Source: a virus. Taken from it: a DNA stretch of 64,000 nucleotides. Made by a program: the position numbers and the translations under genes. The stretch covers positions 49,099 through 113,098 of IMG/VR virus record IMGVR_UViG_3300035670_000062. One strand, 5' to 3'. Of the stretch, positions 29,644-52,558 are shown piece by piece. The notes beneath the pieces are model-generated. The model made no database searches and was not told where the DNA came from. It saw nothing but the letters and a program-made list of their open reading frames with translations. Within the stretch, counting starts at the first letter, position 1, and each line of letters begins with the position of its first letter.

Positions 29644-30396
29644 ATGATATCATTAATAAAACCATATAAAGAATTAAATAAAAAACCTAAAGCCATATTC
29701 ATGGCAGGACCTCCTGGTTCAGGTAAATCATTTATATTAAATAAATTTTCAATACCATCTAAATTCCAAGTAATTAATGTAGATGATATTTATGAAGAAT
29801 TACTTAAAACTCAAATAGGTAAAATGGATTTGAAAAAAATGAATCTTGATGAATTATCTAAAACAGGGGAATTAATGAATCAAGCTAGAAAACAGACAAA
29901 AGAAAAAGAAGAAGATTTATTAATACAAAAACAAAATGTTGTAATTGATGGAGTTGGTGCATCATCAAAAAACTTATTAGAAAAGAAAAAATATATTGAA
30001 TCATTAGGTTATGAAACTTTTATGATTTTAGTTTATGTATCTCCTATAGTATCCTTAGAAAGAAACCTAAAAAGAGATAGACAACTACCAACCAGAGCAG
30101 TATTGGATAGTTGGGTTAAAGTAATAAATAATATTGATACATATAAAAACGAATTTAAGAATAATATAATAATAATTAACAACAACCCTTCAGAAATAAC
30201 TCCATTAGATATTGATACTATATTTAACCAATACCCAGACCCAGAAGGTAAAGAGAAAACACCTGAAGAAATAGAAAAAAGAAATAAACTAAAACAATCT
30301 ATAATAGATAATATAAAAGTTTTAATAAAAAAAGAACAATCTTTTACACCTGATTCTCAAATCCAACCTAAAATCAATGAGTTCATTAGTCAATAA
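29644..30396 (+). CDS. Zeta-toxin-like P-loop kinase
   Basis: The protein has 250 aa. The Walker A motif AGPPGSGKS lies at residues 21-29, followed by INVDDIYEELL (zeta-type acceptor-site Asp), VVIDGVGASSKNLL and a lid with RNLKRDRQLPTRAV. These are typical of the zeta toxin/polynucleotide-kinase-like family, which phosphorylates UDP-sugars or nucleic-acid ends. The last 20 bases overlap the next gene, which starts with a HAD phosphatase domain, so kinase and phosphatase may work on the same substrate. The C-terminus is helical and basic. Confidence 0.7.
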   Translation: MISLIKPYKELNKKPKAIFMAGPPGSGKSFILNKFSIPSKFQVINVDDIYEELLKTQIGKMDLKKMNLDELSKTGELMNQARKQTKEKEEDLLIQKQNVVIDGVGASSKNLLEKKKYIESLGYETFMILVYVSPIVSLERNLKRDRQLPTRAVLDSWVKVINNIDTYKNEFKNNIIIINNNPSEITPLDIDTIFNQYPDPEGKEKTPEEIEKRNKLKQSIIDNIKVLIKKEQSFTPDSQIQPKINEFISQ

Positions 30397-32347
30397 TTTA
30401 ATTAATCCTATATTAGAATCTAATCAAGAATATACTGTATATTTTGATGTAGACGATACTCTAACTAATTACACTGAAAACTTACTAACAACTAATATTA
30501 AAGATAAAAAAATATTAGAAATAAGACAAATAAAACCATCAGACACAGCATCCAATAAAGAATTTTGGGTAAATGCAAAATGGTATCCTGGTTCAAAAGA
30601 AATGTTTAATTACATAAAATCAAAATTCCCAAACGTAAAAATATTATCTGCAGTACCTGAATTATCAAAACTTAAACAACAAGAAACTGGTAATAAATTC
30701 TATAATGAACCTATAGAAGGTAAATCTGAATGGTTAAATAAAAATGTAGGTAATATTGAAAAGATATGGGTCAAAAATGGAAAAGAAAAAGCAGAATATG
30801 CTTCACCTACATCTATATTAATTGATGATAAATTAGAGAATATAAAACATTTTGAAGATGCTGGTGGAATAGGTATATTGATGGATAATCCTAAAAATGT
30901 AATCAATAAAATAAATACATTATCCAACACATTAAACGAATTAACAAATCGATCTTTACCATATCAGCAAATTATACGAGATAAGTATAGTAGCGTTTTA
31001 GATAAACTGTTTTTAATTCCATATAATGATAATTATGTTGAACTAAATATTATAAAAATAAAACCTGAATTTAGAGATAAAGGATATGCTACTAAAATAT
31101 TAAATGATATTACTAAATGGGCTGATGAAAATAATAAAATATTAACATTAGACCCAAATGAAACTTTTGGATCAAATAAAGATAGGTTAATTGATTTTTA
31201 TAAAAGATTTGGATTTAAATTAAATAATGGTAATGATAAAAAAGCAGATAATGAAATGGTAAGAACACCTCAATTATCATTAAATGAAAATGCTACTTAT
31301 TCTAATAATATAAATTATAAAAATGAAATTAAAGAAATTACTAAATTTTTATTAGATAAAGGAGAAAACATTCAACCATTACCTAAAGTTACATTTAAAA
31401 ACGGAGATAAAACGAATGCTAAGGATTTTATGGGAAAAACAGCATATTATGACCCTAATTCCTCTGAAATTGTGTTATACACCGAGGGTCGCCATCCTAG
31501 AGACATAATAGCTTCATATTTACATGAATTAATCCACCATATACAAAACATAGAAGGTAGATTACATAATATACAAACACAAAATGTCCATGAAGATGAA
31601 TCATTAGAATTACTTGAAAGAGAAGCATATGAAAAAGGAGGTATGTTTTTGAGATCTTATAAAGATAATAAAAGGATAATAGATATACCTAAATTTAATT
31701 ATGAAAAAACAATATATCATGAGTTATATGATACTTTAAATGAAATAACTTTATCTAAAGAAAATGCTGTTGGTATAAATGGAGATTTAGAAGGAGGAGA
31801 TTTTAAAGTAGGAGATATAACTTATGTATATTCTATAAATAACATAATAAATCCTTATAAAGATGAAGGTAAATTTTATAATATTTCTTTTTATCCTGAT
31901 GGAAATATAAATGCTGAACCACTAGAAGGAAAGGAAAATTATATTAAAATTTTATCTACAATATATAAAATTGTAGTTGATTTTGCTGAAAAAGTAAAAC
32001 CTGAATATATAGGAATTGCATCTATGGATAATAACGAAAATAAAAACTACCACAGAATATATGCAAATTTAACAGATAATAAATACAATAGGATACCTGG
32101 GTATTTTAGAAAAGATGTTAGTAAAGAATTTATAACTCCTCAAGGTAAAGGTAGATTTGTAGTATTAAAAAGAAACAAAAATATTGAAGAGGATCTTAAA
32201 AAAAATGAAATTAAATATTGGGCTATTTATTATTCAATATATGAAAAATTAAAAGAAAATATTAATTATTATTCATTTTTAAAAGACAGATTAAAGGGAG
32301 AACAATTAAGCGCATTAGATTATTTTTACAATATTTTAACTAAATAG
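30377..32347 (+). CDS. Multidomain protein: HAD phosphatase, GNAT, HExxH peptidase and C-terminal domain
   Basis: The protein has 656 aa with several unrelated domains. Residues 20-165 are a HAD hydrolase (YFDVDDTL, Asp24/Asp26). About 190-290 is a GNAT-like acetyltransferase (IIKIKPEFRDKGYATKIL; FYKRFGFKL). A linker SLNENATYS follows at about 300. About 310-430 is a zinc peptidase-like domain with HELIHH (383-388) and downstream EREAYEKGG. The C-terminal 200 residues include VVDFAEKVKPEYIGIASMDN, similar in layout to the end of the protein at 37995. The N-terminus ends in PILESNQ, an (I/L)xE step. It looks like a capsid-cargo polyprotein. Confidence 0.7.
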   Translation: MSSLVNNLINPILESNQEYTVYFDVDDTLTNYTENLLTTNIKDKKILEIRQIKPSDTASNKEFWVNAKWYPGSKEMFNYIKSKFPNVKILSAVPELSKLKQQETGNKFYNEPIEGKSEWLNKNVGNIEKIWVKNGKEKAEYASPTSILIDDKLENIKHFEDAGGIGILMDNPKNVINKINTLSNTLNELTNRSLPYQQIIRDKYSSVLDKLFLIPYNDNYVELNIIKIKPEFRDKGYATKILNDITKWADENNKILTLDPNETFGSNKDRLIDFYKRFGFKLNNGNDKKADNEMVRTPQLSLNENATYSNNINYKNEIKEITKFLLDKGENIQPLPKVTFKNGDKTNAKDFMGKTAYYDPNSSEIVLYTEGRHPRDIIASYLHELIHHIQNIEGRLHNIQTQNVHEDESLELLEREAYEKGGMFLRSYKDNKRIIDIPKFNYEKTIYHELYDTLNEITLSKENAVGINGDLEGGDFKVGDITYVYSINNIINPYKDEGKFYNISFYPDGNINAEPLEGKENYIKILSTIYKIVVDFAEKVKPEYIGIASMDNNENKNYHRIYANLTDNKYNRIPGYFRKDVSKEFITPQGKGRFVVLKRNKNIEEDLKKNEIKYWAIYYSIYEKLKENINYYSFLKDRLKGEQLSALDYFYNILTK

Positions 32348-32349
32348 TT

Positions 32350-32838
32350 ATGTTTAAGAAAAAAAACTTATATAAAATATTCTGTGATTTAGATGGGACT
32401 TTATCTAATTTTGATAAAAGATATAAAGAATTAACGGGCTATTCCCCTACTACATATAGACAAAAATTTGGTAAAACTTCATTTTGGGATGTTATAGACA
32501 AAAAACATAAAGAGCAATTTTGGTCTGAGATGGAATGGCTGGAAGATGGACCTATATTATGGGATTATATTAAAAAATATAACCCAACAATAATAACAGC
32601 TCCATCCCCAGACATATCATCAAAATTTGGTAAAAGAAAATGGTTAGAAAATCATCTACCTAACTCTCCATTTATAATTTGTCCTAGACAAGAAAAACAA
32701 TTATATTCAAAACATAATCACATCCTAATAGACGACCACTCAGAAAATATAAAAGAATGGTCTGCTCAAGGAGGTATAGGTATTTTACATTCTGATGCTA
32801 AATCTACAATAGAACATCTTAAAAAATTAGGTATATGA
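32350..32838 (+). CDS. HAD-family phosphatase, nucleotidase-like
   Basis: The protein has 162 aa. FCDLDGTL (residues 11-18) holds the catalytic Asp13/Asp15 pair. ITAPSPD is a likely motif II, and HILIDDHSENIKEWSAQGG the acidic motif IV, as in small 5'(3')-nucleotidases. It could dephosphorylate nucleotides or polynucleotide ends. It follows the multidomain HAD protein by 2 bases and differs clearly from that HAD domain. Confidence 0.8.
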   Translation: MFKKKNLYKIFCDLDGTLSNFDKRYKELTGYSPTTYRQKFGKTSFWDVIDKKHKEQFWSEMEWLEDGPILWDYIKKYNPTIITAPSPDISSKFGKRKWLENHLPNSPFIICPRQEKQLYSKHNHILIDDHSENIKEWSAQGGIGILHSDAKSTIEHLKKLGI

Positions 32839-32863
32839 AATTGTTAAAAATATTATTAGAATT

Positions 32864-33436
32864 ATGAGTAAAGAAAACGTATTAAAAAAAGAATTTCAAC
32901 CTAAAGATGTAGAACGTTTAAGGAATATATTAAAGGGAAAAGCAGGTGAAAAAACAACACAAAGTATAGGATATGAAATATCAAAAGAAGAACATAAAGA
33001 TGGAGATATATGGATTGAAAATGGGAAGAAATGGACAATAAAAGATGGTATTAAACAAAATATAACTAAATTAGATTTAGCTAAAAAATATGGAGTTCCA
33101 TTATTTTGCCCAAGTTGTAATAATATAATGAATAAACAATTAGATTCTCATTATTTTAGTTCATTTGGATGTTGTATGGAATGTAATATGAAAAAAGAAA
33201 CTGAATTAAAATTGAATGGAGATTGGGAATCTCATAATAAAGAAATCCATAATAAAGAGATTGACATAATGATAGAAAATTATAAAGCATATATGGAGGA
33301 TGCTTTAAATGAATCTAATAATAGTTTTATAGCTGAAAATGGAGATGTTGAAAGATGGGTGGGAGGTATTAATAAAGAAAGAGCACTAAATTCCTTAGAA
33401 GAAGGTATTTTATATCTTAAATCATTAAAAAGATAA
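32864..33436 (+). CDS. Zinc-ribbon protein of unknown function
   Basis: The protein has 190 aa. FCPSCNNIMNKQLDSHYFSS, then FGCCMECNMKKETELKLNG, gives a CxxC...CxxC zinc ribbon at about 84-110, a pattern I associate with small conserved phage proteins. The N-terminus is charged. The C-terminus contains VERWVGGINKERALNSLEEG and ALNESNN, a possible LNE cleavage step. No enzyme motif is visible. It closes the enzyme block before a new TATTTATA box. Confidence 0.65.
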   Translation: MSKENVLKKEFQPKDVERLRNILKGKAGEKTTQSIGYEISKEEHKDGDIWIENGKKWTIKDGIKQNITKLDLAKKYGVPLFCPSCNNIMNKQLDSHYFSSFGCCMECNMKKETELKLNGDWESHNKEIHNKEIDIMIENYKAYMEDALNESNNSFIAENGDVERWVGGINKERALNSLEEGILYLKSLKR

Positions 33437-33443
33437 TTTGATG

Positions 33444-33451
33444 TATTTATA
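33444..33451 (+). promoter_or_regulatory. Late promoter box TATTTATA
   Basis: TATTTATAATAAAAA before the membrane protein at 33469. Confidence 0.6.
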
Positions 33452-33468
33452 ATAAAAATCAATATATC

Positions 33469-33768
33469 ATGGGTGACCCTACAATAATAATTACCGCAAT
33501 TACTGCTATTCTTACTTCTTTAGGTATAAAAGAAATTTGGAATATAATCAAAACAAGAAATGATTATAAAAATCAAAAAGAAAAACATGATGAATATACT
33601 AAAGACTCTCTCACAGCTAAAATAATAACAGAACTAAGAGATAAAATAATAGAACTTGAAGAAAAAATTGATTCATTAATTCAAGAAAATATTTCATTAA
33701 AAGAAAAATTAGCTAGAATGGAAGAACGATTCTTATTTTCACCTAAAAAGAAATCCAATAAACCATAA
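33469..33768 (+). CDS. Membrane-anchored coiled-coil protein
   Basis: The protein has 99 aa. The N-terminus PTIIITAITAILTSLGI is a single membrane segment, followed by a long charged coiled coil (IITELRDKIIELEEKIDSLI) and a basic tail. Topology and size resemble small phage lysis or spanin-like factors and some holins, but this is inference. It is preceded by a TATTTATA box at 33444-33451. Confidence 0.6.
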   Translation: MGDPTIIITAITAILTSLGIKEIWNIIKTRNDYKNQKEKHDEYTKDSLTAKIITELRDKIIELEEKIDSLIQENISLKEKLARMEERFLFSPKKKSNKP

Positions 33769-33776
33769 ATACAATA

Positions 33777-33784
33777 TATTTATA
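33777..33784 (+). promoter_or_regulatory. Late promoter box TATTTATA
   Basis: TATTTATACTAAA, 16 bases before the ATG at 33801. Confidence 0.55.
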
Positions 33785-33800
33785 CTAAAATTAAAATAAA

Positions 33801-34190
33801 ATGAGTGATAACTTTAACCTACAGAAATTCTTAAAAAAGAATACTCTACTAACAGAAAATAAAAACATCCCTTCATCATCTCAATTGAAAGAAGATATAC
33901 TAAGAAAACATCTTAGAGAAGAAATTCAATCTATTATGAGAGAAGAAAGTGATTTATATGAAGCTGAAGAAGATACAGAAGAATTAGATAATGAATTAGA
34001 TAATATACTTGATGATGAAGAATCAATAGATGGTGAAGTAAACCCAGATGTATCTGAATTACAAGATTTATTAACACAAGCTCAAGCAAAAGCTGAAGCT
34101 ATTGGAGATAAAAAATTAATAGACCAAATAGGAAATACAATTACTTTCTTTACTAGAGCTCATGTAGTAAAATCTGATGGAACAAGATAA
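33801..34190 (+). CDS. Acidic protein with second-type N-terminal tag (NFNLQKFLKKNTLLTE)
   Basis: The protein has 129 aa. The N-terminus MSDNFNLQKFLKKNTLLTEN aligns with the start of the next gene (MENFDLIKYLNNNLLLESE), giving NF-x-L-x-K-x-L-x2-N-x-LL-x-E, with (L)xE at the end. A second amphipathic part, LREEIQSIMREE, resembles the MKKSELRQ-type tag. The middle is strongly acidic and the end is helical. It is probably an internal or core-associated protein. The stop overlaps the next start (TAATG). Confidence 0.65.
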   Translation: MSDNFNLQKFLKKNTLLTENKNIPSSSQLKEDILRKHLREEIQSIMREESDLYEAEEDTEELDNELDNILDDEESIDGEVNPDVSELQDLLTQAQAKAEAIGDKKLIDQIGNTITFFTRAHVVKSDGTR

Positions 34191-34798
34191 TGGAAAATTT
34201 TGATTTAATTAAATACTTAAATAATAACTTATTATTAGAGTCTGAAGATTCAATAGTAGATAAAGTTGTTGATGAAATAGATGATGAAATGGATTTAATT
34301 TTAAAATCTATTGAATCTGAATTAAAAAAGAAATCAACAGAAGATAACTTGAATGAAGGTTTTATGACTATTGTTGGTGTAGGTTTAGCTTTACCTGCTA
34401 TATTAGGTATAGTAGCTAAAATAGGTAAAAAAGCAGGGCAAGTTATTAGTAAGATGGTAGGTAAAAAACCAACAGATAAAGATGAAGTTGATAAATGGTT
34501 TAATAGATTATCAAAAATAGCAGATGAATTACATCATTTATATATGGTTCCTTTAGAATCATTAATGAGTAAATTCATTAAAGATAAGAAAAAAGCAAAA
34601 AAAGCAGCTCATCTATTGTTTCATGTAATAATAGCAATATTCCTTATATCAGCAGGTACTACTGCAGTAAAAGCATTTCAAGCAAAAAACATAAGTTTAA
34701 CAACATTAGAAGGAGTATTAACTGCTATTAAAAGTGGTGAATTAACTACATTTATAGGAAATGCATTAGAAATAGCATCTGAATCTCCTATAGATTAA
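34190..34798 (+). CDS. Membrane-interacting protein with second-type N-terminal tag
   Basis: The protein has 202 aa. The N-terminus MENFDLIKYLNNNLLLESED matches the tag of the gene before. After DNLNEGFM (an LNE junction) come two hydrophobic helices: TIVGVGLALPAILGIVAKIG at about 55-75 and HVIIAIFLISAGTTAVKAFQ at about 144-163, with a basic middle. If the tag is removed by the prohead protease, the product would be a small membrane-active protein, perhaps helping DNA entry. That is inference only. Confidence 0.65.
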   Translation: MENFDLIKYLNNNLLLESEDSIVDKVVDEIDDEMDLILKSIESELKKKSTEDNLNEGFMTIVGVGLALPAILGIVAKIGKKAGQVISKMVGKKPTDKDEVDKWFNRLSKIADELHHLYMVPLESLMSKFIKDKKKAKKAAHLLFHVIIAIFLISAGTTAVKAFQAKNISLTTLEGVLTAIKSGELTTFIGNALEIASESPID

Positions 34799-34828
34799 AT
34801 AAACAAATAAATAAAAATAAATATAAAC

Positions 34829-34996
34829 ATGAACACAACAGAAGTTTTAGAAAAAATCAAATCATTAGTTGCTGAAATTGAAGTAGAACATTCAAAAACA
34901 ACTAAAAAATCAAAAGCAGTAACAAGAAAATTAATGCAAGAATTAAAACAAACTGCCTCTGAATTTAGAAAATTATCAATCGCTGAATCTAAATAG
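34829..34996 (+). CDS. Histone H1-like small basic DNA-binding protein
   Basis: The frame runs from ATG 34829 to TAG 34996 and encodes 55 aa. MNTTEVLEKIKSLVAEIEVE, then KKSKAVTRKLMQELKQ and SEFRKLSIAESK, has the layout of the short H1/Hc1-like proteins common in Bacteroidota: acidic first helix, basic patch, second basic helix. It would bind DNA without sequence specificity. The start of the next gene (GTG) uses the last base of the stop. It supports a Bacteroidota host. Confidence 0.65.
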   Translation: MNTTEVLEKIKSLVAEIEVEHSKTTKKSKAVTRKLMQELKQTASEFRKLSIAESK

Positions 34997-35535
34997 TGAA
35001 AAAACAAATTGAAGAAATATTATCCCCAAAAGTAGTAAAGAAAGCCGAGGAATTCAAAGCTCAAATTATTAACAATAATGGGGATAAAATTTTTCAAAAA
35101 TATGGAAATGAAGCTGAAAACATAATTCAAGGTAGAGCCATAAATTTAGCAAAAAAACATTTTGAAGAAATGAAAAACACAAAATTAACAGAGTTAATAA
35201 AACAATCCTTATTAAAGTCATCTATAACTGAACAAGATGTAGAAGTTGGAGCTGATAGATATGAAGAAGAAAATGAATTGAAAGAAGTTTCTAATTTATT
35301 GGACCAATTAGAAGAATTATTGAAAGTTCATGATTGGAATTATGAATATTATGATGATTATAAAAAATGGAAAGTTGGTGCTAATAGTTGGGCCCAAATA
35401 ACAAGAATAGCAAATAGAATTGAATCTAAAGGAGACAAATATAAAAAAGATGTAAATGATTTGATTAAACAATATGAACCTAAGTTAAATGAAAATTTAA
35501 CAGAAAATATATTTAAAATATTAAGAAAAAAATGA
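34996..35535 (+). CDS. Helical protein of unknown function (GTG start)
   Basis: The protein has 179 aa. The start is GTG at 34996, overlapping the previous TAG. The first 80 residues are helical and charged; NWNYEYYDDYKKWKVGANSW, or close to it, is an aromatic patch near residue 115; the C-terminus has KLNENLTENIFKILRKK with two NE steps. No family is recognised. Overlap with both neighbours indicates one operon of small accessory genes. Confidence 0.6.
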   Translation: MKKQIEEILSPKVVKKAEEFKAQIINNNGDKIFQKYGNEAENIIQGRAINLAKKHFEEMKNTKLTELIKQSLLKSSITEQDVEVGADRYEEENELKEVSNLLDQLEELLKVHDWNYEYYDDYKKWKVGANSWAQITRIANRIESKGDKYKKDVNDLIKQYEPKLNENLTENIFKILRKK

Positions 35536-35987
35536 ACAAAGAACAACTAAGAGATAAAATTAGAAAATTAGCCCTTAGTCTAAATTCAAAACCATCTCCA
35601 TCACTCCCATCAGTTCAAGAATATGATGAATTAACTAAATTTGATGAACTTAAACAAGTAATCATTAATTTACTTTCAACTGAATATAAACCTTTCGTAG
35701 CATCTATAGACTGGGTCTCTCCCAAACCATCAACATTCAGAATAAACTTAAAAAACGACCAAAATTTCTACTTAACTTACACTGAAAGAAGTTGGATAGC
35801 TCAAATAGAAGGAAAAAAATACTATTTATTAAATTTAACTGAAGAACAAAATGCTTCAAATGCCTTAGCAAGAATACTAAGATACAATGCAGATATTTCT
35901 AAAGAAAATGATACAATAGAAAATGAAGAAACAGATATAATAGATAATATTACATCTTCAGAACCAGAACCAGAAGAAACAGAATAA
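35532..35987 (+). CDS. Conserved small protein of unknown function
   Basis: The protein has 151 aa. The N-terminus MNKEQLRDKIRKLALSLNSK is an amphipathic helix, distantly like the tag. The middle is a beta-rich domain with FRINLKNDQNFYLTYTERSW, followed by IAQIEGKKYYLL. The C-terminus is acidic (NEETDIIDNITSSEPEPEET). The start overlaps the previous gene by 4 bases and the stop overlaps the next start (TAATG). Confidence 0.6.
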   Translation: MNKEQLRDKIRKLALSLNSKPSPSLPSVQEYDELTKFDELKQVIINLLSTEYKPFVASIDWVSPKPSTFRINLKNDQNFYLTYTERSWIAQIEGKKYYLLNLTEEQNASNALARILRYNADISKENDTIENEETDIIDNITSSEPEPEETE

Positions 35988-37123: not shown

Positions 37124-37133
37124 TATATTAATT

Positions 37134-37976
37134 ATGAATCTTAAAAATTTACAACAACTCATAAAAGAAGTTCTTTTTGAAGAAAAAACAAAACGGGATA
37201 GATGTCTTCGTATAGCAGACAAAAAATTTGATAAACCATCAGCTTATAAATCAGGAGCAGTAGTTAGATGTAGAAAAGGTGATATTTGGAAAGGATTAAA
37301 AGAAGCCAAAGAATTAAACGTCCAAGATATAGCATACCAACAAACACCAGGCTTATTAGAAAAAGGGATTAAATATGAATTAGCTCATTTTAGGGGATTT
37401 ATGAAATCCTTTTATAAATGGAGTGGTCCAAAAGATAGAAATGATTTTTTTGATTTTATAGAAAATGTAAAAGGAGAAATAAAACGAGTTCCTTTATCAT
37501 CTATAAAACCTTCCCAACTTGATAAAGACTACAAAAACCCATCTTCAGAATACGAAGCAGAAGAATTTCAAAAAATATTATCAGATGAAAAGGATGCTAA
37601 AGACCATAGAATGGCAGATTTTTATCCTATATTAGTTAATAAAAGAGATAATAAAATAATAGATGGTAATCATAGACATTATGCATTATCTGCTATAAAT
37701 TCACCATATGCTGTAGTATTGCATGTAGATGTACCTAAACAATATTTAAATGAAGATGAATCACTTCATAAATGGTTTAAACGCTCAGGCACACCAGGTA
37801 AAGAGGGTGGTTGGGTTGATTGTAATGCTCCAATTCGTAAAGATGGTGAAATAACAGGATATAAATCATGTGGTAGAAAAGAAGACGAGAAACGTGCAAA
37901 ATATCCTTCATGTCGTCCTACACCATCTCAATGTAAAACACCTGGTAAAGGTACTAAATGGGGTAAAACAAAATAA
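37134..37976 (+). CDS. Mosaic protein: tag, RCRKG module, ParB-like domain and Cys-rich C-terminal module
   Basis: The protein has 280 aa in modules. Residues 1-15 (MNLKNLQQLIKEVLFEE) are a divergent tag. Residues 18-50 hold DRCLRIADKKF and GAVVRCRKGDIWKG. The centre carries a ParB/sulfiredoxin-like signature, FYPILVNKRDNKIIDGNHRH followed by YAL. YLNEDES is a possible protease step. The C-terminus (LHKWFKRSGTPGKEGGWVDC; KYPSCRPTPSQCKTPGKG) is a Cys-rich module I associate with conserved small phage proteins. A decayed copy of its end lies at 38501-38584. Confidence 0.65.
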   Translation: MNLKNLQQLIKEVLFEEKTKRDRCLRIADKKFDKPSAYKSGAVVRCRKGDIWKGLKEAKELNVQDIAYQQTPGLLEKGIKYELAHFRGFMKSFYKWSGPKDRNDFFDFIENVKGEIKRVPLSSIKPSQLDKDYKNPSSEYEAEEFQKILSDEKDAKDHRMADFYPILVNKRDNKIIDGNHRHYALSAINSPYAVVLHVDVPKQYLNEDESLHKWFKRSGTPGKEGGWVDCNAPIRKDGEITGYKSCGRKEDEKRAKYPSCRPTPSQCKTPGKGTKWGKTK

Positions 37977-37980
37977 TATA
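37932..37980 (+). repeat. Direct repeat, copy 1 (flanks the gene at 37995)
   Basis: The sequence starting TGTAAAACACCTGGTAAAGG and continuing to AAAATAATAT recurs at 38549-38597 with a few changes and a one-base length difference that alters the frame. The repeats flank one tagged gene, as expected after duplication or recombination-driven insertion. Confidence 0.75.
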
Positions 37981-37986
37981 TTTACA
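37979..37986 (+). promoter_or_regulatory. Promoter box variant TATTTACA
   Basis: TATTTACAATAAAA before the tagged gene at 37995; one mismatch. Confidence 0.5.
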
Positions 37987-37994
37987 ATAAAAAT

Positions 37995-38584: not shown

Positions 38585-38597
38585 AATAAAATAATAT
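38549..38597 (+). repeat. Direct repeat, copy 2
   Basis: Partner of 37932-37980. The repeat lies inside the relic and runs into the A-rich leader of the next gene. Confidence 0.7.
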
Positions 38598-39216
38598 GTT
38601 AAACGAAAATATTCCAAGTTTCAAAGCCTTAGTTCGTAAATCATACTTTACCAAAAACCACAAAGATTCAGATGAGTTCTATAATGTATATGTTTTTGGC
38701 ATTCAATCATATACTGGAACTATATTAACATTTCATGTTATGACAGATCATGGAATGGTCCGTTCTAGAGTACCCATTTCAGAAATTTACACAAAAATTC
38801 CTACAAACAATATACCATTTAATTTTAAACAATTGTGGGATTGTTTTAGTGAAAATGTAGCTATTATAAAATATGATTTTTTAGTATATCATAGAGCACA
38901 AATTGTGTTAAGAGACGGAAGTAAAGTTTGGGGGACATATATGTTTACTGTAGATTGGTATAATAACCCATACAGTGACGAACCTACTGATTATAAATGT
39001 GGTCATATATTTGAATCAGATGAAGGTTACTTATTATGTATGCCTAACAATAGAATATTTTGGAAAGACAGCAATTGGGTTACTAAAAAATTACCAATAG
39101 ATTTAAAACAATTTAAAGTAGACACTGAATTATCTTCTGTAGAAAATCAATCTGACAAATGGATAACTGAAGATGGAAATTCATTTTATTATGACATGAA
39201 TGAAACCATACATTAA
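38596..39216 (+). CDS. Conserved phage protein of unknown function starting at an LNEN junction
   Basis: The protein has 206 aa and begins MLNENIPSFKALVRKSYFTK. The beta-rich body (FYNVYVFGIQSYTGTILTFH; HRAQIVLRDGSKVWGTYMFT) looks like a conserved soluble domain of phage accessory proteins. Starting with L-N-E-N, the junction motif seen inside the mosaic proteins, suggests that the domain was once part of a processed polyprotein. It overlaps the next gene by 17 bases. No enzyme motif is visible. Confidence 0.65.
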   Translation: MLNENIPSFKALVRKSYFTKNHKDSDEFYNVYVFGIQSYTGTILTFHVMTDHGMVRSRVPISEIYTKIPTNNIPFNFKQLWDCFSENVAIIKYDFLVYHRAQIVLRDGSKVWGTYMFTVDWYNNPYSDEPTDYKCGHIFESDEGYLLCMPNNRIFWKDSNWVTKKLPIDLKQFKVDTELSSVENQSDKWITEDGNSFYYDMNETIH

Positions 39217-39463
39217 TATTTCAACCACCTCAACTCATACAATACGTGAGTTTAATGAAAATATAGACTCTACCGAACTTCTTTGGCATCGGGATTTAAA
39301 AGACCGTAAAGTAACAATATTAGAGGGTAATGGTTGGTATTTTCAAAGAGACAATGAACTTCCTTTGGAATTAAAAGAAGGAGTTAGTATATTTATACCA
39401 AAATTAGAATGGCATAGAGTGATTAAAGGAAACACTACATTAAAAATAAAAATAGAAGAATGA
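39200..39463 (+). CDS. Small cupin-like protein
   Basis: The protein has 87 aa. IREFNENIDSTELLWHRDLK, then RKVTILEGNGWYFQ, LPLELKEGVSIFIPKLEWHR and KIKIEE, is a single-domain cupin-like barrel with two His-containing edges, a type I associate with T4-like phage genomes. Ligand and reaction are unknown. It overlaps the neighbours on both sides. Confidence 0.7.
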   Translation: MKPYINISTTSTHTIREFNENIDSTELLWHRDLKDRKVTILEGNGWYFQRDNELPLELKEGVSIFIPKLEWHRVIKGNTTLKIKIEE

Positions 39464-39993
39464 AAAAATCAGAACTTAGACAACTTATTAGAGAAGAAAT
39501 CTTAGCAGAAGCTAAGAAAAAAGACAAATCAGGTTTACCATTTGCGTTAGCAGCTAACCTTGAAAAATATGGAAAACCACAAACTCCAAAAGATGCTAAA
39601 CTTGTTGATTTCACTCAAAAACAAGAAAAAAATGTAAAGAAAACAGCAGAAAAACTAAAAAAATCAATTAAAGAAGATTTAGGTAACTACATGTTTTTCC
39701 AAAACCTTAAAACCATTAAACAAATGGTTGATGATTTGCTTAAATTAGATGAAAAAATGGTTGATGATATTTTAGCAAATGAACATGATTGGGCAAATGA
39801 CCATATTACAACATCAAAAGATGATGTTGAAGAAGTACATAATTTTTTAATGAATAAAAAAGTTGCTATGTCTGTTGAAATGAATGAAAAGAAACAATTG
39901 TCTCCTAAACAAAAGAAAATAGCCTCAGCAGCATCACCAGAAGATGAAATAACTAGTGATGATTTTAAAGTATTAAGAAAAAATAAAAAATGA
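39460..39993 (+). CDS. Tagged mosaic protein (MKKSELRQLIREEILAEA)
   Basis: The protein has 177 aa. The tag is followed by a Lys-rich linker, then a helical module NYMFFQNLKTIKQMVDDLLK with EHDWANDHITTSKDDVEEVH, and a terminal module LSPKQKKIASAASPEDEITS, then DDFKVLRKNKK. Both modules look like pieces that recur in accessory proteins of such phages. No catalytic motif is visible. It is coupled at both ends by 4-base overlaps (ATGA). It is a likely capsid cargo protein. Confidence 0.65.
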   Translation: MKKSELRQLIREEILAEAKKKDKSGLPFALAANLEKYGKPQTPKDAKLVDFTQKQEKNVKKTAEKLKKSIKEDLGNYMFFQNLKTIKQMVDDLLKLDEKMVDDILANEHDWANDHITTSKDDVEEVHNFLMNKKVAMSVEMNEKKQLSPKQKKIASAASPEDEITSDDFKVLRKNKK

Positions 39994-40829
39994 AAAAAAG
40001 CGAATTAAGACAACTTATTAAAGAGTCACTTAATAATAAATATAAATTAGATTCATGTAATTGTGGTTGTAATGTATGTGAGAATACTGGGAATAAAGGC
40101 GTTATTCTAAATGAAAACATAGCTCCCATACAAATATCTGAAAACATAAAATACCACATTAATAATCGCTTACCCTTAACAGAAAATACATTTAGATATG
40201 GCTCAGATGCATTTTTAGATTTATGGAAAGAAGCACGTCATTTATATTCAAGAAATGCTATTCATGTTAATGAATCTGACAAGGAAATTTTAATGGAAAC
40301 TAATTTAGGTGAATACGGAATATATGAAGGACAAAAAGTACCTTTAGACATGCCTATGGTTGACGAAAATACAGATGAAGACAAAGAAGATAACAAAACT
40401 TGGAGTTCATATGAACAAAAAATGGTAAATCAAATATTGCGTGCTAAAAAAGATGGCACTCCCATATTCGAATTACCTATGAAAACACAAGATTTTTATC
40501 GTAAAAATAAAGATAAATTTACTAAGTCATTAAACGAAGCAGAATTCAAAGGTAAAGATGTAGAGTTAAACAAACCAAAACGTGGTGGTTCTAAAAAGTT
40601 TTATGTATATGTTAGAGACCCTAAAACCAAAAAAGTTAAAAAAGTATCATTTGGGGATTCTGGAGGATTATCAACTAAAGTAAATGACCCAAAAGCAAGA
40701 AAAGCTTTTGCAGCAAGACATGATTGCAAAAATAAAAAGGATCGTACTTCTGCTGGGTGGTGGAGTTGTAATCTTCCTAAATATGCTAAATTATTAGGTA
40801 TAAAAAGTACTTTTACTGGATATTGGTAA
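39990..40829 (+). CDS. Tagged mosaic polyprotein with Cys cluster and conserved C-terminal domain
   Basis: The protein has 279 aa. The tag MKKSELRQLIKESLNNK is followed by CNCGCNVCENTG, a small metal-binding-like cluster. Then come successive possible protease steps: VILNENI, PLTENT, HVNES, ILMETN and SLNEAEF. The C-terminal 85 residues (KFYVYVRDPKTKKVKKVSFG; NDPKARKAFAARHDC; WWSCNLPKYAKLLG) are a domain of the type often fused to phage structural or accessory proteins. The density of LNE-like steps between short segments makes it the clearest polyprotein candidate. Confidence 0.65.
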   Translation: MKKSELRQLIKESLNNKYKLDSCNCGCNVCENTGNKGVILNENIAPIQISENIKYHINNRLPLTENTFRYGSDAFLDLWKEARHLYSRNAIHVNESDKEILMETNLGEYGIYEGQKVPLDMPMVDENTDEDKEDNKTWSSYEQKMVNQILRAKKDGTPIFELPMKTQDFYRKNKDKFTKSLNEAEFKGKDVELNKPKRGGSKKFYVYVRDPKTKKVKKVSFGDSGGLSTKVNDPKARKAFAARHDCKNKKDRTSAGWWSCNLPKYAKLLGIKSTFTGYW

Positions 40830-43785: not shown

Positions 43786-43800
43786 CATATATAACATATA

Positions 43801-45049: not shown

Positions 45050-45064
45050 TTACCAAAATAAATT

Positions 45065-46660: not shown

Positions 46661-46681
46661 AATAATAAAAAAATACATAAA

Positions 46682-48553
46682 ATGGCAGACACACAATTAT
46701 TCCCAAGATTGAAAAGATTATTTTCAACAGATGTAATAATAAGAAACATAGGAGGAAACCAACTCCAAATAATGGATATAAATCAGATACAACAAGCTGG
46801 TAATTTACAAACAAATTCCTTAGTAGATAGGTTTAGTAGAATTTATACTACATCACCTACATCACCTAACTCATATTCTTCAAGATTAAATTATTCAACA
46901 TTGAGACCTAGTCTTTATAATGAGTATGATAATATGGATACTGATGCTATTGTATCTTCGGTATTAGATATAATAGCAGATGAATGTACTCTAAAGAATG
47001 ATATGAATGAAGTTATTCAAATTAAAAGTAGTGATGAAAATATTCAACAAATATTATATAATTTATTTTATGATGTTATGAATATTGAATTTTCATTAGG
47101 GTTATGGATAAGAAATATGTGTAAATATGGTGATTTTTTCTTAAAATTAGAAATTGCCGAAAAATTTGGAGTATATAATGTAATACCATATAGCGCATAT
47201 CAAATAGAAAGATTAGAAGGTCAAGATAAACAAAATCCCCATGCTATTAGTTTTAAAGTAATTGAAGAATATTCAACTTATGGAACTCATGGAATATTTA
47301 ATAATTCAAAAGAAACTATCACATTCGATAATTATGAAATGGCTCATTTTAGATTATTGACAGATACTAATTTTTTACCATATGGAAGAAGTTATATTGA
47401 AAACGCTAGAAAATTATATAAACAATATACTCTAATGGAAGATGCAGCTCTTATACATAGAATAGTAAGAGCACCAGAAAAAAGAATATTTTACATAAAT
47501 GTAGGTAACATCCCACCAGCTGAAGTAGAAAATTTCATGCAGAAAACAATTTCTAAAATGAAAAGAACACCTCACGTTGACCCACAAACAGGTGATTATA
47601 ATTTAAAATATAACATGCAAAATATGTTAGAAGATTTTTATGTTCCTGTTAGAGGTAATGATTCATCTACAAAAATTGAAGCATCACCTGCTCTTAATTA
47701 TGATGGGATGGCTGATATTGAATATTTAAGAAATAAATTATTTGCTGCTTTAAAAGTCCCCAAAGCTTTTATGGGATATGGAGAAGACACAAGTGGAAAG
47801 GCAACTTTGGCTGCCCAAGATATTAGATTTGCACGTACTATAGAAAGAATACAAAGAATAGTATTATCTGAATTAAATAAAATAGCATTAATACATTTAT
47901 ATACTCAAGGATATAGAGATGGAAATTTAACAAACTTTGAATTATCATTAACAACTCCATCTATTATTTATGACCAAGAAAGAGTAGCTTTGTTAAAAGA
48001 AAAAGTAGATTTAGCTGGACAAATGATGGAATTAAATTTGTTCCCATCTGATTTCATATATGATAATTTATTTAAACTTAGTGAAGATAAATACGATGAA
48101 TATAGAGACTTAATTAGAGAAGATGCAAAACGTAAATTTAGACTGACCCAAATAGAACAGGAAGGAAATGACCCATTAGAATCAGGTCAATCATATGGTA
48201 CCCCTCATGACTTAGCTTCATTATATGGGACTGGAAGAATAACTAAACCAGGAGAAATTCCAAATGGATATGATGAAAATAAAGAATTAGGAAGACCTAA
48301 AACTAATATGACTGATAGAAATACTCAAAAAGATAATTTTGGTAAAGATAGATTAGGAGCTAAAGCACAAAAAGAAAAAGAACCTCAATCCCAAAAACAA
48401 AAATTCAAAGGTAATTCCCCCCTAGCATTAGAAATGAAAAACATAATTAAAAAATTACCTCAAGCACCAAAATCAGAAAAAAACATTATATTAGAATCAC
48501 TTTCTAATAAAATCAATTTCCTAGATGAATCAAATTTAGAACTAGAAGACTAA
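46682..48553 (+). CDS. gp20: Portal protein gp20-like
   Basis: The protein has 623 aa. AIVSSVLDIIADECTLKND, GLWIRNMCKYGDFFLKLEI, IPYSAYQIERLEG, RIVRAPEKRIFYINVGNIPP and LEDFYVPVRG give the typical T4 gp20 portal pattern (clip, stem and wing). The C-terminal 100 residues are polar and variable. The 12-mer portal forms the DNA channel at one vertex and starts prohead assembly. It follows terminase by 21 bases, in T4 order. Confidence 0.95.
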   Translation: MADTQLFPRLKRLFSTDVIIRNIGGNQLQIMDINQIQQAGNLQTNSLVDRFSRIYTTSPTSPNSYSSRLNYSTLRPSLYNEYDNMDTDAIVSSVLDIIADECTLKNDMNEVIQIKSSDENIQQILYNLFYDVMNIEFSLGLWIRNMCKYGDFFLKLEIAEKFGVYNVIPYSAYQIERLEGQDKQNPHAISFKVIEEYSTYGTHGIFNNSKETITFDNYEMAHFRLLTDTNFLPYGRSYIENARKLYKQYTLMEDAALIHRIVRAPEKRIFYINVGNIPPAEVENFMQKTISKMKRTPHVDPQTGDYNLKYNMQNMLEDFYVPVRGNDSSTKIEASPALNYDGMADIEYLRNKLFAALKVPKAFMGYGEDTSGKATLAAQDIRFARTIERIQRIVLSELNKIALIHLYTQGYRDGNLTNFELSLTTPSIIYDQERVALLKEKVDLAGQMMELNLFPSDFIYDNLFKLSEDKYDEYRDLIREDAKRKFRLTQIEQEGNDPLESGQSYGTPHDLASLYGTGRITKPGEIPNGYDENKELGRPKTNMTDRNTQKDNFGKDRLGAKAQKEKEPQSQKQKFKGNSPLALEMKNIIKKLPQAPKSEKNIILESLSNKINFLDESNLELED

Positions 48554-48559
48554 TCCACA

Positions 48560-48567
48560 TATTTATA
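48560..48567 (+). promoter_or_regulatory. Late promoter box TATTTATA
   Basis: TATTTATAACAAAA between portal and core-position genes; ATG at 48586. Confidence 0.6.
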
Positions 48568-48585
48568 ACAAAACAATTCCCTTAA

Positions 48586-49440
48586 ATGAATAAAATTAAA
48601 CATTCCAAGCTCAAAAACTCAGGAATTCTGTTTGAATTATTAGTTAGGACTATTACATCTGATACCTTAAATGGTAAAGAATCACCAGCTAAAGATATAC
48701 TTAAAGAATATTTTGTAAAAACAGAATTAGGTAAGGAATATAAATTATATGATTATTTAATTAAAAAAAATAACCTAACAGAATCTAAAGCTAATATGGT
48801 TATCAATACTGTATTAGAAAGTTATAATAAATTAAATAAAAAATCGATAAGTAGACAAAAATATAATTTAATAAAAGAAATTAAAAAACATTATGATTTA
48901 GATGAATTTTTTAAACATAAATTAAATGATTATAAAGTTCAAGCAGCCATATATACATTACTGGAATTAAAATCAAACTCAGTAGATAATATTGAACAAG
49001 AAATTACAAATAAATACACAATATTAGAACATTTATCATCAAGTAAATTAACTGATAAAAAAAATAATATTTTAATTAATGAATTTTCTCAATATGATAA
49101 AGATTTAAGAATATTGACATATAAAATATTACTTGAAAAATTCAATGAGAAATATGATGGTTTATCTTCACCACAGAAAAATATACTTAAAGAATTGATT
49201 ATGTCATTAGATAATACACCTAAATTAAAGGAGTTTTATAATAATGAAATAAAATCAATCAAAACTACACTCTTATCATTAAATGAAAATATGAAAGATA
49301 AAGTAGTCAAAATAAAAATTGATGAAATATTAAATATATTACAACCAAAAGATAAATTATGTAAGGTAAAAGATGATGACCTTATAAATTTATTACAATA
49401 TCATGATTTAATTAATGAATTATCTCAAGTAAATGTATAA
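48586..49440 (+). CDS. Conserved protein in the prohead-core gene position
   Basis: The protein has 284 aa, nearly all helix, beginning KHSKLKNSGILFELLVRTIT, then SDTLNGKESPAKDILKEYF. I associate this opening with conserved proteins next to the portal gene in T4-like phages. It lies between portal and protease, where T4 has the core proteins gp67 and gp68. LSLNENM at about 227-233 is a candidate gp21 cleavage step. A TATTTATA box precedes it at 48560-48567, and it overlaps the next gene. Confidence 0.65.
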   Translation: MNKIKHSKLKNSGILFELLVRTITSDTLNGKESPAKDILKEYFVKTELGKEYKLYDYLIKKNNLTESKANMVINTVLESYNKLNKKSISRQKYNLIKEIKKHYDLDEFFKHKLNDYKVQAAIYTLLELKSNSVDNIEQEITNKYTILEHLSSSKLTDKKNNILINEFSQYDKDLRILTYKILLEKFNEKYDGLSSPQKNILKELIMSLDNTPKLKEFYNNEIKSIKTTLLSLNENMKDKVVKIKIDEILNILQPKDKLCKVKDDDLINLLQYHDLINELSQVNV

Positions 49441-50032
49441 ATATAAATTAAAAGAAGTTGAATTAGGTGATACAAAAATCATCAAAGGTAAAAAACATAC
49501 TGTGTCTGACATAGACCCAGAAACTAATTCTATATCGTGGGATATTTCAACCACTCCAAATTTCGAAAGTTCTTTTAAAATGTTTTCTCAATTAAAAAAA
49601 GCACTAAAAACCTTAAGTTCAAAGAAAGATTCAAAACTTGATCTAATTTCAACTGAAGTAGATTCATTATTTAATGAATTTAGAACTCATCTAAGAAAGA
49701 AATACCCAGATGAATATAAATTATTCAAATCAATAAATGAAGATTCTATTGCTTACAGTTCCCCCAAAGTATTCAAACCTAACCCTAACTTCAAATATAA
49801 ACTAAAAGAAGGAACAGACGCATATACAGACTTCCAGAAAAAACAAATTAATATATTTGATGAATTAGAAGAAAAATTAAATTCATTATATCCCCTAATA
49901 TCAAACGCTCAAAATTTTACAACAAAATATTATAATGAAAATCCAGGATCATTTAAAATATTATATAGTACAGAAATAATAAATAAATTTTTAGATGATA
50001 TTAAAAAAATACTAGAATCAACACCCAACTAA
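49433..50032 (+). CDS. Head-module protein of unknown function
   Basis: The protein has 199 aa. It starts MYKYKLKEVELGDTKIIKGK with a beta-rich segment (TVSDIDPETNSISWDI), followed by charged helices and SINEDSI, then FKYKLKEG, and helices at the end. The repeat of YKLKE at residues 3-8 and 121-126 suggests two related pieces. It overlaps the upstream gene by 8 bases. A core or scaffold accessory role is inferred from position. Confidence 0.6.
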   Translation: MYKYKLKEVELGDTKIIKGKKHTVSDIDPETNSISWDISTTPNFESSFKMFSQLKKALKTLSSKKDSKLDLISTEVDSLFNEFRTHLRKKYPDEYKLFKSINEDSIAYSSPKVFKPNPNFKYKLKEGTDAYTDFQKKQINIFDELEEKLNSLYPLISNAQNFTTKYYNENPGSFKILYSTEIINKFLDDIKKILESTPN

Positions 50033-50059
50033 ATTAAAAAACAATCTCATAAAACATAT

Positions 50060-52558
50060 ATGAAAAATACACTTACAGAACAATACAGACTTATTAAAAT
50101 AGGTAAAGGAAATAAAGAAACTTTTTTAAAGGAAGCTAAATCATTATTCCCTAACTTACTTACAAATAGTTCAACATATAATGAAACTGAAAAGATTTTA
50201 AAACAAAAGGGAGTAATATCTGAAAATATTCATAGTTTGAATCCTATTGCATTTCCTACTACTAAAAAAGAATCATATGAAATAGCATTTAGTAAATTCT
50301 TAAAAGAAGCTAAAAAGGAAGAACCTAAAACTGAAACTTACGACAATAAGAATACTAAAAATTCTAATAACTTAATATTCGACCAAATAATGAGAGGATG
50401 TTATGTTGAAGCTAAAGTTGAGAAAAATAAAGACAAGACAATAGATGAAATTAAAGACATTGTTGTTAAAAATTTACAAAAAGATCCTATTTATTATACT
50501 AAAAATGGTGCTTTTGGTGAAGAAGGATTAGGATATGAAACTGAAGTTCCTGGTTTAGGTACTCCAAAAGAGGCTAAAGGTAAGTATAAATCAAGTGGAT
50601 ATGGTGATTTAAAAGAAAATACTACAAGATTATTTTATAGGATTCCTAATGAAATAAAAAATTTAGAAAAATATGGAGTAAAAATTACTATAGACCCTAA
50701 AAATACAGTTTCACCAATTCAAAGAATAGGAGTACCTGTAAATTTAGATGATGAAATATATGATAAAATAGAAGATATTCTATATAGATATAATTTAAAA
50801 CCCAAAAAATATTTTATCACACAAAAAGGCGTAAACGAAAACAAAGACACTGAAATTAAAATAGGAGACATTCTTATTAAAAATGGAAAAAAAGGAAAAG
50901 TTATAAAAGTGATGGATGATATGGTTAATGTTGATTTTGGTAACGGGGATGTTTACGGTATTACTTTAAGTAGAATTAAAGGAAATGAAATAGTAAACGA
51001 AAACAAAGATGCTGAAGTTTATGCTAAGAAAAAAGGTTTTACCACAAAAAAAGGATTAAATGAAAATAATAATTTAAAAGAAGGTAATGATTTTGGTGGA
51101 GCTGGTTTAATAGTTGTGGGTCGTACTCCAATAGATAATGATTTAATAGACCAAGCTGTAGAAGAAAGTGGTTTTTACGGAATATTTAATGCTAGAGAAA
51201 ATTATTGGTTTTTTCCTGAAGGTGAAGAAACAATAGATAGGCTAGAAAATGAATTAGAAACTATTTTTATTAAAAAAGGAATTAATGCTAGATTTGAAGG
51301 TCAATTTAATGAAAATAAAACAAACAATCAACCTAAATTCAAAAAAGGTGACAAAGTAACTTACCTAGGCCATCCAGGTGAAATTACTGCTGTTAATAAA
51401 GAAATGACTGGTGCTATTACATATAATGTTGCTTATAATAAAGGAACAGGTAGAACTAAAGCAACAAACATCTATAACAAAGATGGTGAAATTAAACCTT
51501 TAAATGAATCAAATTCAGAATATTTAGATAAATTATATGATATAATTTTAAAATATGTTAAAGATCCTGACGAAGCAGAACAAGAATTAGATGGATATAT
51601 AAGTCAAGGATGGAGTGGATTTTCAAATATGTTAATGTCTAATCTAAATAAAGATATGGATTTTATATCATTAACCCAACAAGGACATGATAAAGACATT
51701 CAAAGAAGAGAATCTGGATTAAATGAATCATATGGTTCAAATGGTGACTTTGATGGTACTGGTTTAATAGTAGTAGGTCGCACCCAAATAGATAATAATG
51801 AAATTGGAGATGTAATTGAAGATTTAGGTTATTATGGAGTATGGAATTCAAGAGAAGGATATTGGTTTATACAAGAAGATAAACCAACTCTTAGTTATTT
51901 AGAAGCTGATTTAGATGAAGAATTTGCTAAACGAGATATTAATGCTAGATTTGAAGCTCAATTTGGAGAGGATGAAATAGATTACGATGATGAAAATTTC
52001 TCAGACCCCCTAATAGATGGTGAAGAAGATTTATTTGAAAGTAAATGGAGAAAAACACAAAAAGAAAAAATAGTTAAAGAAAATATAAATAAAGAAATTA
52101 CCCAAATTAACAAAGATGCGGAATCAGAAGTTTTAGAAAGTAAATTATCTAAAATAAATGATGCTATTGAAAAAAGGGAATCTAAATTATCTAAAATAAA
52201 TGAAGATGAAGATTTAAAAGGATTAACTGACAATAAAAAAATTAAATCTCTACAAAAGGAAATAAAAACTTTAGAAAAACATAAATCTAAAATCGAGAAA
52301 CAATTAAATAAAGGCTCAAAACAAAACAAACCTAAGGAAATCAATGATGAAATCATAGATGAAACTGAGGGATTGAATTTCGAATATAAAGATTATTTTA
52401 ATTTAAACGAATCGATAGAGGAACAATTATCTTCAACACAAGAATCATTATTTACTTTAATCGAGGATTTATATGATGAATTAGGTAGCATGGATGAAGT
52501 AAAAAAATTAGTTAATTCTGCTTTAAACAACGTCGCTTTAAAATTTGGTGATTATTAA
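50060..52558 (+). CDS. Large repetitive head-module polyprotein
   Basis: The protein has 832 aa. About nine NE junctions separate its parts: VISENI, DLKENT, GVNENK, IVNENK, GLNENN, QFNENK, PLNESN, GLNESY and NLNESI. A domain GAGLIVVGRTPID (from about 342) recurs as GTGLIVVGRTQID (from about 560), each ending with INARFE. KOW/SH3-like pieces (GDILIKNGKKGKVIKVMDDM; KGDKVTYLGHPGEITAV) lie between. It sits directly before the prohead protease. The pattern fits a core or cargo polyprotein cut by that protease. Function is otherwise unknown. Confidence 0.7.
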   Translation: MKNTLTEQYRLIKIGKGNKETFLKEAKSLFPNLLTNSSTYNETEKILKQKGVISENIHSLNPIAFPTTKKESYEIAFSKFLKEAKKEEPKTETYDNKNTKNSNNLIFDQIMRGCYVEAKVEKNKDKTIDEIKDIVVKNLQKDPIYYTKNGAFGEEGLGYETEVPGLGTPKEAKGKYKSSGYGDLKENTTRLFYRIPNEIKNLEKYGVKITIDPKNTVSPIQRIGVPVNLDDEIYDKIEDILYRYNLKPKKYFITQKGVNENKDTEIKIGDILIKNGKKGKVIKVMDDMVNVDFGNGDVYGITLSRIKGNEIVNENKDAEVYAKKKGFTTKKGLNENNNLKEGNDFGGAGLIVVGRTPIDNDLIDQAVEESGFYGIFNARENYWFFPEGEETIDRLENELETIFIKKGINARFEGQFNENKTNNQPKFKKGDKVTYLGHPGEITAVNKEMTGAITYNVAYNKGTGRTKATNIYNKDGEIKPLNESNSEYLDKLYDIILKYVKDPDEAEQELDGYISQGWSGFSNMLMSNLNKDMDFISLTQQGHDKDIQRRESGLNESYGSNGDFDGTGLIVVGRTQIDNNEIGDVIEDLGYYGVWNSREGYWFIQEDKPTLSYLEADLDEEFAKRDINARFEAQFGEDEIDYDDENFSDPLIDGEEDLFESKWRKTQKEKIVKENINKEITQINKDAESEVLESKLSKINDAIEKRESKLSKINEDEDLKGLTDNKKIKSLQKEIKTLEKHKSKIEKQLNKGSKQNKPKEINDEIIDETEGLNFEYKDYFNLNESIEEQLSSTQESLFTLIEDLYDELGSMDEVKKLVNSALNNVALKFGDY

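Follow-up and report, generated by a model that had tools for sequence, protein, structure and literature searches.

Candidate prohead-protease sites at module edges of predicted head-cargo polyproteins in a T4-like phage

In bacteriophage T4, a 10-residue N-terminal sequence suffices for targeting to the head and is then cleaved, the cleavage rule being L/I-X-E with a site noted at LIE-9 (PMC9026906); polyvalent proteins of phages and conjugative elements are thought to be delivered early in infection (PMC5512222), and for DarB of phage P1 an N-terminal capsid-targeting signal is reported (PMC9024508). Here we examine a 64,000-nucleotide stretch (the window) of the IMG/VR virus record IMGVR_UViG_3300035670_000062, in which unrelated effector domains appear, judging from sequence, to be strung together in single chains, with sites between them that match the head-assembly protease of the virus itself, as they also appear to be in many relatives of this virus.

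The source record comprises 113,098 bases, has a GC content of 28% and is Asn-rich; plain numbers below are window coordinates and L-numbers (e.g., L034:171) denote related loci. Among cultured phages the nearest relative found is Flavobacterium phage immuto (56% identity in the capsid protein), which shares the head gene order with the window and has a similar accessory block ahead of the terminase. Viral contigs queried with a single protein, either the protease or that at 30377, gave no match or one fragment, and relatives were collected by terminase alignment search; motif families were drawn from 80 related loci together with immuto, Mel-JY01 and LR756508. A first-pass annotation of the window had interpreted L-N-E-(N/S/A) junctions in accessory proteins as T4-type protease sites between effector domains, an interpretation which is supported by the sequence comparisons given here.

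Candidate sites at module edges of the accessory proteins

All seven junction strings on which that annotation relied are found in the sequence (an arrow marks the candidate cut): SLNE↓NAT in 30377 (residue 304), VILNE↓NI and SLNE↓AEF in 39990 (residues 42 and 183), KLNE↓NL in 34996 (residue 166), and GLNE↓NN, PLNE↓SN and GLNE↓SY in 50060 (residues 335, 483 and 556). Further junctions are NLNE↓GF in 34190 (residue 56) and SLNE↓NM in 48586 (residue 234). The numbers of steps given per protein had to be corrected: 39990 contains three NE steps and six other (L/I/V/M)xE sites rather than five NE steps, and 50060 contains 13, eight of them of the form [LIVMF]NE, rather than about nine. The protein at 30377 combines the following features:

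30377..32347, + strand: predicted cargo polyprotein, HAD nucleotidase, GNAT acetyltransferase, HExxH metallopeptidase-like and C-terminal domains
30410..30418, + strand: candidate site ILE↓S, residue 14, just ahead of the HAD domain, whose match starts at 15
30932..30940, + strand: candidate site LNE↓L, residue 188, HAD/GNAT junction, the HAD match ending at 188
31280..31288, + strand: candidate site LNE↓N, residue 304, GNAT/metallopeptidase junction, where the phrog_10691 match (213-304) ends
31736..31744, + strand: candidate site LNE↓I, residue 456, metallopeptidase/C-terminal junction, the next match starting at 473

Profile matches in this protein are to a HAD nucleotidase (phrog_2643, 15-188), GNAT (phrog_10691, 213-304) and phrog_16075 (473-583), and the metallopeptidase-like block is homologous to immuto gp088 and L034:171. 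With HAD, GNAT and HExxH it joins unrelated effector-type domains in one protein, which is the trait of polyvalent proteins.

The strongest comparative material comes from a carrier protein with an exchangeable slot:

37134..37976, + strand: carrier protein with leader, half A, ParB-like insert and half B
37296..37304, + strand: left slot site GLKE↓A, residue 57; LxE here in 29/29 large inserts
37305..37745, + strand: exchangeable ParB-like module, predicted cargo, without counterpart in immuto gp084 and L049; unrelated modules elsewhere
37746..37754, + strand: right slot site YLNE↓DES, residue 207; (L/I/V/M)xE in 58/58 inserts of at least 12 amino acids

Among 64 nonredundant members of the 37134 family, halves A and B abut in L049 (122 amino acids) and are joined by a short linker in L032, L038 and immuto, while the slot holds a ParB-like module in the window and L060, and ParB-like and YunG-like modules within one protein in L034 (L034:6779). 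Distinct inserts of 95-290 amino acids, belonging to 15 unrelated sequence clusters, are carried by 29 of the 64, and every one of these has LxE both in its first 14 and in its last 9 residues (7.1 and 4.4 expected); together with the position of the 30377 sites on or between domain edges, this bears out the between-domain placement claimed at first. The right-edge (L/I/V/M)xE would be expected in 15.2 of the 58 inserts. Inside the slot modules, strong sites occur as often as expected (5 against 4.7) and [LI]xE less often (32 against 49). In a fixed-column logo anchored on half B, for which no motif was used, P3 (L or I) and P1 (E) are each constant in 33/33, with seven kinds of residue at P2 and 11 at P4. 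The comparative slot evidence (15 unrelated clusters, 29/29) therefore provides stronger support than the original junction observation.

As to the content of the slot, domain matches were obtained to ART-PolyVal (3e-07), ddrB-ParB (0.003) and HYD1-type ART (0.006), and five modules have a weak match (3e-05) to NleE, a cysteine methyltransferase family; most of the 29 modules are without confident family assignment, and a PF13203 search of the phage's own genome gave no match. One module cluster recurs in five contigs (L118, L122, L124, L140 and L159), which are probably the carriers of the five NleE-like modules.

A similar pattern is seen in a second family:

39990..40829, + strand: predicted multi-module cargo protein with leader (phrog_7595, 180-261; family alignment)
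40107..40115, + strand: candidate site ILNE↓N, residue 42; ILNE↓S, LLKE↓G, LLTE↓G and similar in relatives
40530..40538, + strand: candidate site SLNE↓AEF ahead of the C-terminal domain

Near the C-terminal domain, (L/I/V/M)xE is present in 83 of 84 nonredundant linkers of this family (14-234 amino acids), with P2 variable and the Glu most often nine residues upstream of the domain.

Cleavage motif, leader sequences and prohead protease

Comparison with within-protein shuffles, the check named in the first-pass annotation, favoured its proposal: LNE is in excess in the accessory block (w30377-42300; 10 observed, 2.1 expected) and in the head block (w45065-57436; 9 and 2.3) and not in the 49-kb early region (6 and 6.5), the corresponding ratios for [LI]NE[NSAGD] being 9/1.3, 9/1.4 and 3/3.7. 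Since the early region shows no excess, LNE is not explained by composition bias of an Asn/Glu-rich genome, an alternative which that annotation had itself named and which shuffles, decoys and early-region counts contradict. As a cleavage rule, LNE was dropped for (L/I)xE, P2 being variable; the better predicted rule is (L/I)xE followed by G/S/A/N/D. The T4-type (I/L)xE rule originally invoked survives the controls in the amended form (L/I)xE↓small, with Asn as one favoured P2 residue.

For [LI][NKTSQ]E[GSAN], observed and expected counts are 127 and 17.6 in the core50060 family (7.2-fold), 77 and 15.0 in the scaffold family (5.1-fold), 38 and 8.3 in leader-bearing accessory proteins (4.6-fold) and 153 and 62.9 in other (accessory) open reading frames of the relatives (2.4-fold). 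The motif is depleted in terminase (1/7.6, 0.13) and portal (4/13.3, 0.30), and gives 2/6.5 (0.31) in immuto tail genes and 21/24.1 (0.87) in immuto early genes; the reversed motif is mostly at about 1 or lower, with a maximum of 30/17.5 (1.7) in the core50060 family. When [LI]xE[GSAN] was calibrated on T4, the substrates gp67, gp68, gp22 and gp21 gave 16/3.2 (5.05) and non-substrates 13/11.9 (1.09), so that the statistic recognises true substrates. A further test, at sharp homology breakpoints of accessory proteins, was used in a stricter version with decoys that replaced a noisy first one; the site is 2.4-fold over expectation there, against 1.03 for E-to-D/K/R/Q decoys and 0.78 for a non-hydrophobic P3. 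It is supportive but noisier than the other junction tests.

Many of the relevant accessory proteins open with a MKKSELRQLIKEE leader, which in the window has the form M(K)KSELRQLIKEE or a close variant, for example:

39990..40025, + strand: leader MKKSELRQLIKE, found in 11 genes of the genome

These genes (3381, 6477, 12754, 37134 with a variant, 37995, 39460, 39990, 41737, 43579, 56132 and 56888) all lie in the late half of the genome, the early half having none on either strand. In the window and its relatives there are 46 nonredundant leaders, shared by otherwise unrelated proteins; LxE follows at +8 in 17 (1.0 expected) and at +4 in 8 (0.9 expected), the others being without it. Internal leaders occur in fused chains, namely L089:2601 (LIKE↓NKMKKSDLKKLIKEQ) and L060:1065 (ENKLQRLIKEVLQE↓D). 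The MKKSELRQLIKEE leader resembles a capsid-targeting sequence and, by analogy with T4, fits that role. Small leader-tagged proteins (3381, 6477, 12754, 43579, 56132 and 56888) are also encoded within the tail cluster and after the capsid gene, so that genes for head cargo may be dispersed over the late region.

A protease with this specificity would be provided by the head gene cluster, which is of the T4 type (terminase 45065, portal 46682, core proteins 48586, 49433 and 50060, S77 protease 52579, scaffold 53371, major capsid protein 54364) and in which the order portal, core, protease, scaffold, major capsid is present in the maps of both the window and immuto:

52579..53211, + strand: prohead protease, peptidase family S77, T4 gp21 type (PF03420, E=1.4e-24; phrog_207, E=8.8e-50)
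53116..53124, + strand: candidate self-cleavage site SLNE↓S, residue 182, in the C-terminal tail of the protease; equivalent site in about 30 related proteases
53371..54336, + strand: scaffold protein at the T4 gp22 position, flanked by the protease and capsid-protein genes; family with the 5.1-fold enrichment
54538..54546, + strand: probable capsid-protein maturation site QLVLE↓SN, residue 61; compare the T4 gp23 propeptide

The protease scores 87.1 bits against PF03420, above the curated cut-off of 27, and its His76 (GELDHP) and Ser135/136 (SSRG), which we take to be catalytic, are invariant in a three-phage alignment. About 30 related S77 proteases have (L/I/M/V)xE↓(G/S/A/N) near the N-terminus and again some 20-30 residues before the C-terminal end; the automatic step picked a few of the N-terminal sites wrongly, but they are visible in the listed sequences. 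The 212-residue T4 gp21 likewise carries LIE (residue 9) and ITE↓S (residue 187), and the gp23 propeptide of T4 is 65 residues long (PMC9026906). In the huge phage LR756508 the prohead protease (L016:16481-18205) is interrupted by an insert of >300 amino acids that, from its sequence, looks like an intein. The C-terminus of the window portal (48488-48532) reads ILE↓SLSNKINFLDE↓SN; as [LI][NKTSQ]E is rarer than expected in the portal family as a whole, this may be a C-terminal trimming site.

Core proteins, further modules and alternative explanations

Embedded modules are also found in a core protein of the window:

48586..49440, + strand: prohead-core protein following the portal; family of 60 relatives, [LI]NE 3.7-fold over expectation
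50060..52558, + strand: prohead-core protein (T4 gp67/gp68 position) with embedded modules, syntenic with immuto gp071
51056..51064, + strand: site GLNE↓NNN, ahead of module copy 1
51089..51289, + strand: duplicated module copy 1, residues 344-410, 52% identity to copy 2 (E=6e-19)
51500..51508, + strand: site PLNE↓SNS
51719..51727, + strand: site GLNE↓SYG, ahead of module copy 2
51746..51946, + strand: duplicated module copy 2, residues 563-629

Compared with immuto gp071 (360 amino acids), 50060 has conserved ends and an expanded middle, and it contains 14 strong sites against 2.2 expected. By windowed self-comparison, module duplications were found in six core or scaffold proteins (window, L019, immuto, L023, L040 and L085), with (L/I/V/M)xE at or beside the start of both copies; repeats in other proteins are without it. 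In the immuto scaffold (L010:15216-16457) a 60-residue segment is duplicated at 85% identity, the copies opening after VNE↓G or LEE↓G, which is a recent module duplication. The sites in 48586 are more likely to serve scaffold degradation than cargo release, and 48586, the scaffold and the 50060 backbone are probably degraded in the manner of T4 gp67, gp68 and gp22; among the core proteins, candidate cargo is limited to the embedded modules of 50060, and those that are extra relative to the immuto protein may travel in the core as such. Of the effector polyproteins first proposed, the accessory chains are supported by sequence, whereas 48586 and part of 50060 turned out to be prohead-core proteins.

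Smaller accessory genes carry related features:

34190..34798, + strand: second-type leader (FDLxKYL..LLxE) with hydrophobic domain; Mel-JY01 homologue L014:26740
34349..34357, + strand: candidate site NLNE↓GF in 34190
34996..35535, + strand: accessory protein with GTG start and HDW module, KLNE↓NL (residue 166) at the C-terminal edge of the module
39200..39463, + strand: stand-alone cupin-like module, reappearing inside the longer proteins L056:401 and L065:1388

The Mel-JY01 homologue has INE↓V at the equivalent junction. This second leader type (FDLxKYL..N.LLxE) opens 33801-34190 and 34190-34798 as well as immuto gp076 and gp077. The core protein L019:6003-7478 holds two tandem copies of the 34996 module, with LKE↓S after each of them, and the gene at 35532 corresponds to the C-terminal domain of immuto gp079 (841 amino acids). 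The cupin-like module is a separate gene in the window and in L031 and directly follows LNE↓S in L056:401 and L065:1388, where the start GLNE↓SKPYKDLEVT of the former may be set beside the stand-alone MEKPYRDLEVT; only hand-checked cases were used for such comparisons, the automated count of equivalent starts having mostly reflected wrongly called starts and a single core family. In L020:1491-2156 a cupin-like gene continues in frame into a leader-bearing protein, and a TTG start at the leader could allow re-initiation.

Modular head-cargo polyproteins, guided by a leader and processed by the prohead protease, are in our view the probable explanation of these sequence patterns. Several observations weigh against it: the left LKE of the slot is kept even in 37134 relatives without an insert and may belong to half A; 43801 and 35532 have no strong site, and the leader proteins 37995, 39460 and 43579 no clear LxE after the leader; the reversed motif is also 1.83-fold enriched at homology breakpoints, making that test a noisy one; and AlphaFold models (mean pLDDT 33 and 53) were too weak for placing domain boundaries. 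In core-type proteins, moreover, ordinary scaffold degradation would yield equal sites. One alternative is that the sites serve only core degradation and leader removal, the accessory domains staying joined after loss of an N-terminal propeptide, in line with T4, where gp21 cuts gp22, gp67 and gp68 into many fragments and processing of the remaining head proteins mainly removes N-terminal propeptides (PMC9026906), with SPN3US, which behaves likewise, and with the strongest enrichment being in the core50060 and scaffold families. We nevertheless regard it as rather unlikely, since accessory sites also lie at internal or C-terminal module edges (188, 304 and 456 of 30377, 207 of 37134, 183 of 39990) and LxE is kept on both edges of 29 inserts from 15 clusters.

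That the LxE steps are inherited, uncleaved relics of gene fusion or recombination would be compatible with descent of the right slot site from one ancestral insert and with a left LKE that exists without insert, but it is made very improbable by the retention of L/I at P3 and E at P1, with P2 taking 7-9 kinds of residue, beside modules of 15 clusters, and by the depletion of LxE in the interiors. Cleavage in cis by a zincin-like metallopeptidase within the polyvalent chain, as proposed for such domains (PMC5512222), would suit 30377 with its HExxH domain; 37134, 39990 and 50060, however, have equal sites and no metallopeptidase match, and the sites match those within the prohead protease itself, so that we give this explanation very little credence. 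Least credible of all is the chance occurrence of LNE in flexible, Asn/Glu-rich linkers: the 28% GC, Asn-rich genome and a slight but real enrichment of any E at breakpoints (1.13-fold) speak for it, but early and tail genes are negative, P3 and P1 are fixed while P2 varies, and composition bias was rejected by the shuffles and by the E-to-D/K/R/Q (1.03) and non-hydrophobic P3 (0.78) decoys.

Proposed mechanism and relation to known systems

For the leader-guided polyproteins we infer packaging, cleavage, ejection and module activities as follows. Head cargo would be encoded by the accessory genes lying between tail genes and terminase, each chain being brought into the prohead core by a short amphipathic leader (MKKSELRQLIKEEI..xLxE) in the style of T4 capsid targeting and consisting, behind the leader, of one to several folded modules with (L/I)xE↓(G/S/A/N/D) in their linkers. 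During prohead maturation the S77 protease would cut after Glu, removing the leader and separating the modules, which would then remain in the head alongside the DNA and be ejected into the host. The predicted cargo domains (5'-nucleotidase, GNAT, HExxH peptidase, ParB-like, cupin) would be of a host-takeover type. In the slots of the carriers 37134 and 50060, a module and its site could be gained, duplicated or swapped, and it is slightly better than an even chance that such carriers, the core protein included, act as plug-in delivery devices whose effectors are freed by the protease in the head.

If this holds, polyproteins are the form in which many effectors are delivered by a T4-like phage lineage that is common in metagenomes, much as eukaryotic viruses are known to use them; no description of polyprotein effector delivery from phage heads, nor of inter-module prohead-protease sites with an exchangeable slot, was found in the literature searched, which covered few subscription journals. 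The leader, paired LxE and two constant halves would then allow injected effectors of unknown type to be catalogued without data other than sequence, and the carrier slots, should the plug-in reading hold, would be a sequence-only route to new ones. The specificity proposed for the uncharacterised protease is directly testable in cultured phage.

The protease, the rule and leader-tagged internal proteins are already known from T4, and multi-domain effectors from polyvalent proteins. The latter likewise have unrelated effector domains per chain, and their repertoire of ParB-like, ADP-ribosyltransferase and zincin-like domains overlaps that found here, but their processing is ascribed to built-in metallopeptidases (PMC5512222), whereas here sites of the prohead-protease type lie at the junctions. 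DarB and DdrB of phage P1 are large head proteins with multiple domains that reach the host, as proposed here; a repeated inter-module site pattern is not described for them in the text consulted. In phiKZ and SPN3US (proteases gp175 and gp245) many head proteins are cut after xxE, with several cuts per propeptide and with ejected head proteins, but the rule is S/A-x-E or A-x-E and the cuts remove propeptides instead of separating functional modules (PMC10052503). A close likeness is to T4, which shares the gene order portal, core proteins, protease, scaffold, capsid, as well as an S77 protease with the (L/I)xE rule predicted here, and whose internal proteins IPI, IPII, IPIII and Alt have, as here, a conserved short N-terminal leader on diverse cargo. 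The T4 leader ends in a Glu at which it is cleaved; here a candidate LxE of this kind follows part of the leaders. The leader sequence here differs from the T4 capsid-targeting sequence, and while the T4 internal proteins are single units with propeptides at their ends, the chains described here have multiple modules, candidate sites between them and a slot in which modules are swapped.

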